Made by a program: the position numbers and the translations under genes
Notes under the pieces: generated by a model
The model's input: the letters and a program-made list of their open reading frames with translations, nothing else
Database searches by the model: none
Told to the model about the DNA's origin: nothing
Assembly (NCBI GenBank): GCA_903642225.1
Contig: CAHJWI010000017.1
Location: forward strand, 1 to 64,000
From: Acidobacteriaceae bacterium
Lineage (GTDB): Bacteria > Acidobacteriota > Terriglobia > Terriglobales > Acidobacteriaceae
Length of the DNA: 64,000 nucleotides
Reading direction: 5' to 3'
In this document: in pieces, positions 405-63,062 of the stretch
How positions within the stretch are numbered: position 1 is the first letter of the stretch
Layout of the letters: every line of letters begins with the position of its first letter

Positions 405-421
405 GCGAACAGAAAGCGAAC
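405..421 (+). promoter_or_regulatory. Candidate LexA operator ahead of imuA
   Basis: GCGAAC, five bases, then GCGAAC again: a perfect direct repeat at 405-410 and 416-421. It contains GAAC-N7-GAAC, which is the reverse complement of the GTTC-N7-GTTC LexA box known from Alphaproteobacteria. imuA-imuB-dnaE2 cassettes are classic LexA targets, so the location fits. The repeat ends three bases before the ATG chosen for imuA, so bound repressor would cover the 5' end of the transcript or the ribosome site. No lexA gene is in the window. Confidence 0.6.
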
Positions 422-1545: not shown

Positions 1546-3051
1546 ATGTTCACCGCGATACTCATCCCTGAGTTTCCCGTCATTGCGTGGCAACGAAGCT
1601 CTTACGACACACATAACCAGGCGTGCGCTGTTCTTGAGGGAACCGCACCGCAGGAGAAGGTCGCTTCGCTGTGCGCAAAGGCGAGAGCAGTCGGAATTGA
1701 ACACGGGATGGGTAAGGCACAGGCGGAAACAGGGGGGATGACGCTGTTTCGCACCCGGCAAATCGACGAAGAGCGGATTGCGTTTGCAAGTGCACTGGAG
1801 GTTGCAGAACGCTTTTCTCCCAGCATCGAAGCCATTGCATCACCCTGGAACGCATATGGGGAGGCCGACCATATGCATGTCGTTCTGCTGCTCGACAGTG
1901 CTGGAACGGGCACTCTCTTCGGCTCCGCTGAAAGCTATGCCCAGAAGCTTCACAGCGACCTGTCCCGTGCAGGTTTTCCCGCGCACATCGGTTCCACCCC
2001 CAATGCGGAAGCGGCGCTCATACTTGCGCGAAGCGTCGGAGGCGTTGGTTGCGCGGACCGGGGTAGCCTGCGTGGCAGGCTTGCCCAACTTCCGATTGCG
2101 TTACTGCCTTGCGACGGGAAGACACACGCCGTGTTGAACCGATGGGGCATCCGTACGCTGGGCGCGTTGGCTGCCTTGCCGGAAACTGCACTTATTAGTC
2201 GCCTTGGGCAGCAAGGCAGGAGGCTGCAGCAGCTTGCTCGCGGTGAGGCTGAACACCTGCTTGTTCCGCAAGAGCCGGACTTTACGCTTTCAGAGACGAC
2301 GTCTCTCGATAGCCCGTTGGAATTGCTGGAGTCTCTGCTCTTCGTGATTTCTCCCATGCTGGAGGAGATTATGCGAAAAGCAATGAGCCGCGCATACGCG
2401 CTTCGCTCCGTGAAGCTGACGCTTCTGCTGGATCGAGCGAAGCCGCATTCGGTCGAGGTACGGCCAGCAACGCCTACCCAGAACCGGGAGGTACTGCTGA
2501 AATTGCTCAACCTGGAGCTGCAGGCGAAACCGCCAACGGCGGGGATCCTCACCGTCACACTGACAGGAGAGGCCGCACAACCGCAAACGGCGCAACATGG
2601 CCTGTTCCAGGCGCAGTTCCCCGAACCTGACAAGTTGGAGTTACTGCTTGCCCGGCTTCGTGCGATTGCAGGCGAGGACAACGTCGGTTCACCGCAACTT
2701 CGGGACAGTCATTCAGGAGATGCTTTCTCTGTAACAACGTTTCGGCCAAGCGTCCAGAGCACCACGTTAGAAAAATCTTTCCCGTCTACTCTCGCCATCC
2801 GCATGTTCCGTCCGCCTCAGTCTGTGCGGGTGACCTGCTGGGGCGACCAGCCACGTGCAATGTTCTGGCAGGGGGCGAGACTCGCGATTGCCTCTGCTGC
2901 AGGCCCATGGCATTCATCAGGCTCGTGGTGGGATGGACAGGCATGGGATCACGACCTTTGGGACGTGGTGACAGTGGAACCAGTGCAGGCGCTTCGACTG
3001 CAGCAGGATCATAGCTCGCATGCGTGGTCCGTGATGGGGCTTTATGACTGA
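1546..3051 (+). CDS. imuB: ImuB, Y-family polymerase-like protein without catalytic acids
   Basis: A 501-aa Y-family polymerase homologue that acts as the hub of the ImuA-ImuB-DnaE2 mutasome. The start ATG 1546 is two bases after the imuA stop. The motif that carries the first catalytic aspartates in DinB is here LIPEFPVIAW (6-15), with no Asp. The canonical S-x-D-E is replaced by SPSIEA (91-96), where Asp becomes Ile. A DNA-synthesis role is therefore unlikely, as is known for ImuB. HhH-like and little-finger regions follow (about 185-390), then a C-terminal extension. QLPIALLP at about 184 is not a clear beta-clamp motif, and I cannot assign one. The stop overlaps the dnaE2 start by eight bases. 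Confidence 0.92.
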   Translation: MFTAILIPEFPVIAWQRSSYDTHNQACAVLEGTAPQEKVASLCAKARAVGIEHGMGKAQAETGGMTLFRTRQIDEERIAFASALEVAERFSPSIEAIASPWNAYGEADHMHVVLLLDSAGTGTLFGSAESYAQKLHSDLSRAGFPAHIGSTPNAEAALILARSVGGVGCADRGSLRGRLAQLPIALLPCDGKTHAVLNRWGIRTLGALAALPETALISRLGQQGRRLQQLARGEAEHLLVPQEPDFTLSETTSLDSPLELLESLLFVISPMLEEIMRKAMSRAYALRSVKLTLLLDRAKPHSVEVRPATPTQNREVLLKLLNLELQAKPPTAGILTVTLTGEAAQPQTAQHGLFQAQFPEPDKLELLLARLRAIAGEDNVGSPQLRDSHSGDAFSVTTFRPSVQSTTLEKSFPSTLAIRMFRPPQSVRVTCWGDQPRAMFWQGARLAIASAAGPWHSSGSWWDGQAWDHDLWDVVTVEPVQALRLQQDHSSHAWSVMGLYD

Positions 3052-6000
3052 ACGGTATATGGAGCTGCATGCGCGTTCGGCTTTCTCTTTTTTGGAAGGC
3101 GCTTCTCTGCCAGAGGCCATGACCCAGCAGGCGGCCAATCTTGCACTGCCTGGTCTAGCCATTCTCGACCGCGACGGTCTGTATGGCTCACCTCGCCTCT
3201 ATACGACAGCGCAGAAGCTTGGTCTTCGCTCACACATCGGCGCAGAAGTCTCCGTCGACAGGTTTGGCATGCAGGCAACGCCGCCCGCATGGCAGCCGCA
3301 CGCGATTCCGAGCCGCCCAGTGCGCCTGTCCTTGCTCTGTGAGTCGCAAACCGGCTACCGAAATCTTTCAATGCTGATCTCAAGCTACAAGCTGGCGCAG
3401 CGAACCAAAGGCGATGGCGTTGCCGTGTTCCGAACAGTACAACAACATGCGGAAGGTCTGGTTTGCTTGACGGGTGGCGATGAGGGCCCGCTCGCCGCAG
3501 CACTGGAGCGCGGCGGCATGGACGAGGGCCGCAGCACGCTCAACGCCTTGGTCCGAACCTTTGGTCCGAAGAACGTTTACGTGGAACTGCAACGCCATGG
3601 TGTCTGCGGGCAAGAAGTACGCAATCAGGCCGCCATCGCTCTCGCGCGTGAGTTTCACCTGCCGTTGCTCGCTACGAACGGCGTAAACATGGCCACCGAG
3701 TTTGAACGCGAAATCCTAGATGTGCTCACAAGCATCCGGCATGGCTACTCGTTAGATGATGCAGGCCTGCTGCTGCAACACAACAGCAAGCGGCACCTTC
3801 GTTCTGCCGCACAGATGTGTGCCCTCTTCCGTGATGTCCCCGAAGCCATAGCTCACACCGCAGAGTTGTCCGATCGGCTTACCTTCCAAATGAAAGACAT
3901 GGGTTACGAGTTCCCGCGGTATCCCATACCGGAAGGCGAAAGCATGGACAGTTTTCTGCGCAAGCGTACCTTCGAGGGTGTGGCGCGGCGCTATGGCTGC
4001 AAAGCAAGCGGCAAGCTACGCGCCAACGCGGACCGGCAAGTAGACAAGGAGCTTGCACTCATAGCGAAACTGGGTCTGGCGGGCTATTTCCTGATCGTGT
4101 GGGACATCGTTGAATTCTGTCGCAAGAACGGGATCCTTGTGCAAGGCCGAGGTTCTGCCGCCAACTCCGCTGTCTGCTACTCCTTGGGGATCACTGCCGT
4201 GGATCCGGTGGGAATGGAATTGCTGTTTGAACGGTTTCTCTCCGAGGTCCGTGGTGAGTGGCCCGACATCGACCTTGACCTGCCTTCAGGTGATGACCGC
4301 GAGCGCGCCATCCAGTATGTGTATGAGCGTTATGGCCAGTTGGGCGCTGCCATGTGTGCCAACGTCATTACCTACCGTGGACGCTCTGCCGCGCGCGAGG
4401 TAGGAAAGTCGCTCGGCTTCGATGCAGACATGCAGACGAGGCTTACGCGGCTGGTCGGCTCCTTCGAGTGGAAGGGACCGACTGACACGATGGAACACCA
4501 CTTTAAGCAGGCCGGTTTTGACCTCCATCATCCGCGCATCGCGAAGTACCTCGAACTGTCTATTCGAATGCTGGATCTGCCCAGGCACCTGGGTCAGCAC
4601 TCGGGCGGCATGATCATCGCTCAGGGCCAACTTGCTTCCGTAGTGCCGCTCGAACCCGCATCTATGCCGGGGCGCAACGTGGTGCAGTGGGACAAGGAAG
4701 ACTGCGCCGACATGGGCCTCATCAAAGTCGACCTGCTGGGGCTCGGCATGATGGCGGTGTTGAAGGATTGTGTCGAGTTGATCCCGCGCCACTACGGCAA
4801 GCAGATCGACATCGCTCAGATTCCGCATGACGACCCCAAAGTCTACGAGTCTCTGCGCCGTGCGGACACGATCGGGCTCTTTCAGGTGGAGAGCCGGGCG
4901 CAGATGGCTTCCCTTCCACGGAACAACCCTGACAAGTTCTACGACCTAGTGGTGCAGGTGGCGATCATCCGGCCTGGGCCCATTGTGGGGCAGATGATGA
5001 ACCCATATATGGAGCGGCGGCAGAGGCGGCAGGAGATCGCGTATCCGCACCCACTGCTGGAACCTGTGCTTCGCCGTACCCTGGGCGTGCCGCTATTTCA
5101 GGAGCAGTTGCTTCGGATAGCAATGGTCATCGCCAACTTTACTGGTGGCGAAGCGGAAGAACTACGCCGCGCCCTGGGCAGCCGGCGGTCACAGGAAAAA
5201 ATGAAAGCGCTCGAAATCAAGCTGCGTGCTGGTATGGATAGCAATGGTGTCGGTCCCAAAGCGCAGGAGGAGATCATCCTTGCCATCAGCTCGTTTGCCC
5301 TTTACGGCTTCCCAGAGAGTCATGCCGCCAGTTTCGCGCTGATCGCGTACGCATCGGCATGGCTGAAGTTCCACTACCTGCCTGTTTTCACGGCAGCGAT
5401 TCTAAACAACCAGCCGATGGGTTTCTACTCGGCCGCCGTGCTCGTCAAAGATGCGCAGCGACACGGTCTACGTATGAAGCCGGTCGACATTTTGCGTTCG
5501 CAGTGGAACTGCACTCTGGAACAGGAGGAGGATGAATCCTACTCGCTGCGACTTGGCCTGCGTTATGTCCGTGGCCTGCGCGCAAATGTTGCTGCGGAGA
5601 TTGAGCGGGTACGCGCAATGCGGCCGTTTGGGTCCATCGAGGAGCTCGCCCGTCGTGTGCCGTCACTCTCGCAGGCAGACCTCACTGTGCTTGCGGAAAC
5701 GGGGGCCTTAAATCCGCTCGGAGAACGAACTCACCGACGCGACGCACTGTGGCAGGTTGAACGTGCCGCACGGGCTGCAGGCCCACTGTTATCCGAACTC
5801 GACCGTGACGAGGAAGAGAGTTCACCGCTTTCAACTATGAACCCGGAGGAGCGCATGGTGGCCGACTACGCCGGAACCGGTGTAACGGTCGGGCGTCATC
5901 CAATGTGGCACTGCCGTCCTCGGCTTCGGCAACTCAGCGTCTTTCGCGCTGGTGATCTGAGACTGGTTCGCAACGGTGTGAGGACACGCATCGCCGGCCA

Positions 6001-6253
6001 GGTAATTGCACGACAGCGGCCAGGCACCGCCCACGGATTTATTTTTCTTTCATTAGAGGATGAGACGGGTATCGCAAATGCCATCGTTGATCCCGACCTT
6101 TACGAAGCCAATCGCAACCTTGTGACTTACGCTAAATTCCTACTGATCGAGGGCACGCTTCAGAACATTGATAAGGTCATCCACCTTCGCGCCAAACATA
6201 TCGAAGAACTAACCGTCACGGCAGCACCTATGGAATCCCATGACTTCCATTAG
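3044..6253 (+). CDS. dnaE2: Error-prone DNA polymerase III alpha subunit DnaE2 (ImuC)
   Basis: The 1069-aa catalytic polymerase of the SOS mutasome, normal length for DnaE2. Order: N-terminal PHP domain (1 to about 270, starting MTERYMELHARSAFSFLEGA), then palm and fingers with GRGSAANSAVCYSLG and the catalytic acids in PDIDLDLPSGD (about residues 407-417). An HhH region follows at about 850-900. A C-terminal OB fold contains RTRIAGQVIARQRPG and a short tail. The start ATG 3044 overlaps the imuB stop, so translation is probably coupled. It gives replication past lesions at the price of mutations, as in Mycobacterium and Caulobacter. Confidence 0.97.
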   Translation: MTERYMELHARSAFSFLEGASLPEAMTQQAANLALPGLAILDRDGLYGSPRLYTTAQKLGLRSHIGAEVSVDRFGMQATPPAWQPHAIPSRPVRLSLLCESQTGYRNLSMLISSYKLAQRTKGDGVAVFRTVQQHAEGLVCLTGGDEGPLAAALERGGMDEGRSTLNALVRTFGPKNVYVELQRHGVCGQEVRNQAAIALAREFHLPLLATNGVNMATEFEREILDVLTSIRHGYSLDDAGLLLQHNSKRHLRSAAQMCALFRDVPEAIAHTAELSDRLTFQMKDMGYEFPRYPIPEGESMDSFLRKRTFEGVARRYGCKASGKLRANADRQVDKELALIAKLGLAGYFLIVWDIVEFCRKNGILVQGRGSAANSAVCYSLGITAVDPVGMELLFERFLSEVRGEWPDIDLDLPSGDDRERAIQYVYERYGQLGAAMCANVITYRGRSAAREVGKSLGFDADMQTRLTRLVGSFEWKGPTDTMEHHFKQAGFDLHHPRIAKYLELSIRMLDLPRHLGQHSGGMIIAQGQLASVVPLEPASMPGRNVVQWDKEDCADMGLIKVDLLGLGMMAVLKDCVELIPRHYGKQIDIAQIPHDDPKVYESLRRADTIGLFQVESRAQMASLPRNNPDKFYDLVVQVAIIRPGPIVGQMMNPYMERRQRRQEIAYPHPLLEPVLRRTLGVPLFQEQLLRIAMVIANFTGGEAEELRRALGSRRSQEKMKALEIKLRAGMDSNGVGPKAQEEIILAISSFALYGFPESHAASFALIAYASAWLKFHYLPVFTAAILNNQPMGFYSAAVLVKDAQRHGLRMKPVDILRSQWNCTLEQEEDESYSLRLGLRYVRGLRANVAAEIERVRAMRPFGSIEELARRVPSLSQADLTVLAETGALNPLGERTHRRDALWQVERAARAAGPLLSELDRDEEESSPLSTMNPEERMVADYAGTGVTVGRHPMWHCRPRLRQLSVFRAGDLRLVRNGVRTRIAGQVIARQRPGTAHGFIFLSLEDETGIANAIVDPDLYEANRNLVTYAKFLLIEGTLQNIDKVIHLRAKHIEELTVTAAPMESHDFH

Positions 6254-62582: not shown

Positions 62583-63062
62583 GTTGTCAGTATCGCGCGG
62601 GCGGCGAGGTGATGCGTGGCCGCCGCAGCCGATAGCGTGATCCCGGAGGGCAGGGTTCATTGCCGAAGTTGGCGCAGTGAAGCGAATTGAAGGAGCGAGC
62701 TGCTTTTCCACTTGCGCGATAGGTGCAGTTGGGCGAACATAAAGCGAAGAAACCAGAGTGCGGCGTCAGCAACTAACACCGCACTGCCGGTTTAGAAGAG
62801 ATTGAACGTGGGTGGCGAGTCGTCTGCAGGACGGAGTGCGACGCTGGCTTTGCACAGGCGTGCAAGGCGCGGCGCGGGCATCCTTTGCGGACACAGAACG
62901 TCGCTGCCCAGATGGCTGGGCCTGGGACGCACGCGGAGGGACCAACCCGTGGGCGACGATGTCGGCGGCGCACCGTGGGCCGTGCTTCCCGTGCGATTCC
63001 CAGGCTCAGCCAGCATAAAACGTGTGCGAGCCAGAAGGGCGCCTGCTGCATCCAACTTCGGC
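62583..63062. other. Divergent intergenic region
   Basis: About 480 bases between moeA (minus) and the propeller gene (plus). No gene, RNA or repeat could be supported; open frames on the minus strand are Arg/Pro-rich and lack family features. Both promoters should lie here, but no clear boxes were found. Confidence 0.4.

Follow-up and report, generated by a model that had tools for sequence, protein, structure and literature searches.

Does the direct repeat that stands immediately before imuA in this acidobacterial genome act as a LexA operator, and if so, of which type? The window, a stretch of 64,000 nucleotides from the start of a contig of an Acidobacteriaceae bacterium, carries the repeat on the forward strand at 405-421 as GCGAACAGAAAGCGAAC, i.e., GCGAAC (405-410), AGAAA, and GCGAAC (416-421). 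These are exactly the letters given in the original prediction, including the GAAC-N7-GAAC at 407-421. The repeat is followed by ACG and the imuA start codon (ATG, 425-427), so that the sequence with its flank up to imuA reads GGCGAACAGAAAGCGAACACGATGCATGCT. On the reverse strand, the predicted LexA-type operator (405-421) reads GTTCGC-TTTCT-GTTCGC, with the core TTCGC-N6-TTCGC at 405-420; its assignment draws on the repeat itself, a matrix score, and relatives.

The genes downstream, all on the forward strand, form an operon without gaps up to position 6253 that joins a RecA-like ImuA, a Y-family-like ImuB, and an error-prone DnaE2. imuA (425-1543) encodes a protein of 372 aa that matches Pfam RecA (1.2e-10) and, below the cut-off, NCBIfam ImuA_translesion (2e-9). 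imuB (1546-3051) was assigned from weak matches to DNA polymerase IV (best 4.3e-12) and its position between imuA and dnaE2, while dnaE2, or imuC (3044-6253), scored 1212 bits against NCBIfam PRK05672, over the cut-off. The imuA start at 425 is sound, since it agrees with the nearest homologues, whose frame is closed by an in-frame stop 9-12 bases upstream of the aligned N-terminus. Directly upstream of the cassette, positions 1-61 resemble the 3' portion of a tRNA-Val with anticodon GAC, truncated by the contig start; this 3' end, sought as an integration repeat, was present in a single copy within the window.

The repeat unit and its occurrence at lexA, recA, and imuA

The original prediction took GAACN7GAAC as the motif to be looked for at lexA and recA. 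This choice did not hold up: the window holds three copies of the bare motif where 1.85 are expected, which is not significant, and the genome holds 107 versus 83 for the reversed control. None was found upstream of the genome's own lexA or recA, where the matches fall within coding regions. We therefore rejected it as the working motif. RTTCGC-N5-RTTCGC with one mismatch allowed was also rejected as too loose (104 versus 69 in the control), the contrast being supplied by the T-rich spacer. For TTCGC-N6-TTCGC, by comparison, 0.24 copies are expected in the window and three were found, a count reached in 0 of 100 shuffles. As read from the sequences compared here, the working unit is TTCGC-N6-TTCGC, with a period of 11, a T-rich spacer, and a free first base in each half-site (mostly A or G); the box before imuA departs from a strictly T-rich spacer.

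A weight matrix was trained on the lexA and recA sites of other genomes only, with imuA sites left out. It gave 23.9 bits to positions 404-421, the second rank in the window, with the third place at 14.9 bits; run on random sequence of genome length, it found no place that scored as well. The one place in the window that outscored it, at 62732-62749 on the reverse strand (TTCGCTTTATGTTCGC, 24.3 bits), lies between a moeA-like gene on the reverse strand and a gene for a YncE-like beta-propeller on the forward strand, both named by sequence reading. An inverted repeat, AGTGCGG...CCGCACT, follows this box on the forward strand, and an Rfam search there returned no match. A second exact copy of the core, at 453-468 on the reverse strand, scored 5.3 bits and sits inside imuA in a conserved run of codons; it is probably a coincidence rather than a further operator.

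We read the genome itself and its relatives as stretches around matches. Just upstream of the ATG of its own lexA, the genome carries GTTCGCCTTTTATTCGC (C14:65794-65810; GTTCGC-CTTTT-ATTCGC), which has the exact core, stands before a TACAAT -10 element, and occupies the space separating that element from the -35. Upstream of recA is TTCGCTTTTTCTTTGC (ATTCGC-TTTTT-CTTTGC), which has one mismatch, confined to one half-site, and overlaps the -35 element. TTCGC-N6-TTCGC is thus common to lexA, recA (with one mismatch), and imuA, which upholds the earlier view of the repeat as a LexA-like box that an acidobacterium carries at a target where one is expected, here as a predicted operator. Absence of GAACN7GAAC from lexA and recA, which had been proposed as grounds for refutation, would have led to a wrong rejection, since the shared unit is present at both.

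The unit is strongly conserved in relatives. Upstream of lexA, the exact core is present in 78 of 80 named Acidobacteriaceae/Terriglobia, among them T. roseus, Granulicella mallensis, Edaphobacter lichenicola, and Acidipila rosea, and the other two carry it with one mismatch. For recA relatives in the family, the core is exact in 19 of 29 and has one mismatch in four more. Where the start of imuA relatives could be read, it is exact in 26 of 28 and has one mismatch in the remaining two, against an occurrence of 0.2% in shuffled upstream sequence. Across 100 family genomes, TTCGCYTTTNNTTCGC was counted 296 times versus 11 for the reversed control (27-fold). A chance repeat in the imuA leader, with no regulator behind it, would agree with the chance level of bare GAAC-N7-GAAC in the window and its mild enrichment in the genome; it is refuted by the fuller unit, which is conserved family-wide at lexA, recA, and imuA, exceptions being few, and is enriched well above the control, and we give it practically no weight.

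These loci also bear on whether a true alphaproteobacterial GTTC-N7-GTTC box was imported with a horizontally acquired cassette. Such an origin would suit the imuA box, in which both half-sites are GTTC, and the cassette, which lies beside a tRNA end and encodes an ImuA (425-1543) that is 55% identical to that of another genus of the family versus 30-32% to that of its own genus. It is contradicted by the boxes at the native lexA and recA, which are of the TTCGC type with ATTC or CTTT instead of GTTC; moreover, the most similar cassettes in other acidobacterial genera bear the same box. Import of this kind is extremely unlikely. Judged by these identities, the imuA cassette has itself probably been exchanged between genera. 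One genome of the same genus (G095) contains three imuA-like genes.

Promoter context and other candidate targets

The box ends three bases before the imuA ATG, and its core four. This distance had been called unusually close; it is in fact the norm in the family, as the boxes of imuA relatives mostly end 1-13 bases before the start. The repeat points toward the gene as GCGAA at 25 of the 26 imuA sites with an exact core, opposite to its direction at lexA and recA. Relatives show two layouts of box and promoter, at the transcript start. In the first, which L065 and L066, the nearest homologues, share with L069, L072, L090, L091, and L093, a -10 element precedes the box by 3-12 bases. In the second, seen in many relatives, the box itself contains a GAANAT, and a -35-like element precedes this GAANAT by 17-19 bases. 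A promoter scan before imuA in the genome itself found no forward-strand promoter and no clear sigma-70 promoter. When aligned with L065, in which TTGACT-19-TATTCT is followed by the box 12 nt downstream, the genome weakly suggests GATAAG at 385-390 on the forward strand, with TGC just before it, as the likeliest candidate -10; the leader would then span roughly 27 bases and contain the box.

A leaderless or nearly leaderless imuA, with the whole box either preceding the transcription start or located at it, would be compatible with control by LexA. The box ends only 3-4 bases before the ATG, and in the second layout the mRNA would start at the end of the box with a leader of about 7-15 bases; the first layout, in contrast, would place the box in or at the leader. 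We regard the leaderless arrangement as rather unlikely. Repression by covering the transcription start region would fit the imuA relatives best.

In relatives, boxes also precede other DNA-repair genes, and weaker sites precede such genes in the genome itself. Boxes were found in relatives before dnaB, a gene for an Rv2578c-like radical SAM protein, a DEAH-box helicase gene, and a three-Cys-motif partner gene, as well as between ruvB and dnaG. The box before dnaB and the one between ruvB and dnaG (L333, L334, L348) suggest that replication genes are under LexA in Acidobacteriaceae. The commonest extra target was the Rv2578c/PA0069-like radical SAM gene (L335, L340, L346, L347, L349, L352); its product is distantly like spore photoproduct lyase, which makes it a candidate DNA-repair gene of the regulon. 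A match at uvrA in one relative (L350) was dismissed as a codon coincidence. In the genome itself, weaker sites of 14-16 bits lie before uvrB, recG, and ftsK; these are tentative, because matches with one mismatch are near chance there (34 versus 27 in the control). Stronger sites were found by a ribonucleotide reductase gene, a DUF3606 gene, and a gene for a cysteine-rich small protein of 140 aa. The division and cell-wall cluster is headed by mraZ, and another box (C55:1273, L133; 22.4 bits) lies some 260 bases upstream of this gene, where it may connect SOS with cell division.

Covariation of the LexA recognition helix and the operator half-site

The genome encodes a single LexA match, with none other at E 0.001. 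The protein has the LexA_DNA_bind and Peptidase_S24 domains and the invariant LexA residues A88-G89, S121, and K159. It is 64-89% identical to the LexA proteins of Acidobacteriaceae, the best matches being an uncultured Terriglobus (89%) and T. roseus (87%).

We compared about 100 lexA loci from other families of Acidobacteriota. Their lexA promoters very often take the form TTGA(C/T) - repeat - TAnnnT, in which a direct repeat with a period of 11 occupies the 17-base spacer. The half-site varies across the phylum (TTCGC, TTCAC, TTACGC, TTACAC, TTGCGC, and TTCGTC). Helices with Asn as the third residue (SLNAVYKH, SPNAVFKH, SYNSVQKH) pair with CAC, whereas those with Ala or Gly (SLATVHKH, SYGTVYKH, SFGTVQKH) pair with CGC or its like. 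Scored by a fixed rule, this pairing holds in 49 of 49 scorable loci and in 31 of 31 family votes; Fisher's test on the families gives 1e-8, with the families listed by hand and that of the window included. In a tree of LexA built outside the helix, both traits change together four times, two of them on well-supported branches. These two to four independent joint switches are too few for a sign test, and the families are related. In alignment, the covarying position corresponds to Asn41 in the LexA of E. coli, a residue that reads operator bases in LexA-DNA structures.

The covariation is good, if not decisive, evidence that LexA reads the box. It is also somewhat favored by these comparisons that Acidobacteriota share a single operator architecture, a period-11 repeat in the spacer between -35 and -10 of lexA, the half-site of which would have switched repeatedly with single helix residues (Asn with CAC, Ala/Gly with CGC). 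If true, the phylum offers a natural series for reading the joint change of specificity in a repressor and its regulon. A possible further operator layout occurs in two other families of the phylum (L197, L202), whose lexA genes open with ATGGTGAACAAAATGGTGAACA, a direct repeat that has a period of 12 and covers the start codon.

The helix also serves to judge a further explanation, in which the box is the operator of another repressor, such as an S24 or XRE-type damage regulator, and its copy at lexA is part of a cascade. Several family genomes do encode further, weaker S24-type proteins beside LexA. However, the genome itself has the one LexA match only, the operator tracks the LexA recognition helix across the phylum, and the targets are the classic LexA set; control by another repressor is therefore very unlikely.

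Predicted regulation and relation to known LexA systems

The shared operator unit is present at lexA, recA (with one mismatch), and imuA, is conserved and enriched, precedes repair genes, and tracks the LexA helix. The repeat at 405-421 is most probably (about 93%) the SOS operator of imuA-imuB-dnaE2, which the single LexA of the genome would bind and thereby repress the operon until damage occurs. LexA binding, repression, and induction, like the exact imuA promoter and transcription start, are what we infer from the pattern of sites. In the proposed mechanism, a LexA dimer would sit on two TTCGC half-sites that are 11 bases, or about one helical turn, apart, cover the transcription start region of imuA, and keep the operon off. 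RecA filaments on damaged DNA would then cause LexA to cleave itself and vacate the operator; with LexA gone, the error-prone polymerase set encoded by imuA-imuB-dnaE2 would be made.

Acidobacteriota are among the commonest soil phyla, and the motif permits prediction of the SOS regulon across the phylum, in which inducible mutagenesis by imuA-imuB-dnaE2 is probably controlled by LexA. The motif also lends itself to a simple test of the code that relates the LexA helix to its operator. Among the papers searched for LexA in Acidobacteria, Solibacter, and Terriglobus, none described an acidobacterial SOS box, though an earlier mention is possible.

The closest known counterpart is the alphaproteobacterial SOS box GTTC-N7-GTTC, a direct-repeat LexA operator (PMC8565304). 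The two share a direct repeat with an 11-base period, TTC in each half, and a location at lexA, recA, and imuA-type cassettes. The acidobacterial box differs in its TTCGC half-site and T-rich spacer, with CAC, ACGC, and TTTGC variants in other acidobacterial families, and the strict definition of GTTC in both halves fails at the genome's own lexA (GTTC/ATTC) and recA (ATTC/CTTT). The description of the box as alphaproteobacterial in style was hence right about its architecture and wrong about its half-site. The recognition helices differ likewise: SKSGIHRL in alphaproteobacterial LexA and SLATVHKH in the acidobacterial protein. The box at 405-421 is very likely a direct-repeat LexA operator with an architecture already known from Alphaproteobacteria, which suggests that such operators with an 11-base period are not confined to that class.

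Control by LexA is the general rule for imuA-imuB-dnaE2 cassettes elsewhere in bacteria (PMC3901139, PMC6511836), and the present cassette shares their gene order and expected LexA control. It differs in that no lexA lies inside the cassette and the operator is of the acidobacterial type, usually oriented as GCGAA at the imuA start. In E. coli, the LexA operator is CTGT-N8-ACAG and the recognition helix SPNAAEEH. The E. coli repressor belongs to the same family, and its Asn41 corresponds by alignment to the covarying helix position; its operator, in contrast, is an inverted repeat with a different half-site, whereas that predicted here is a direct repeat.
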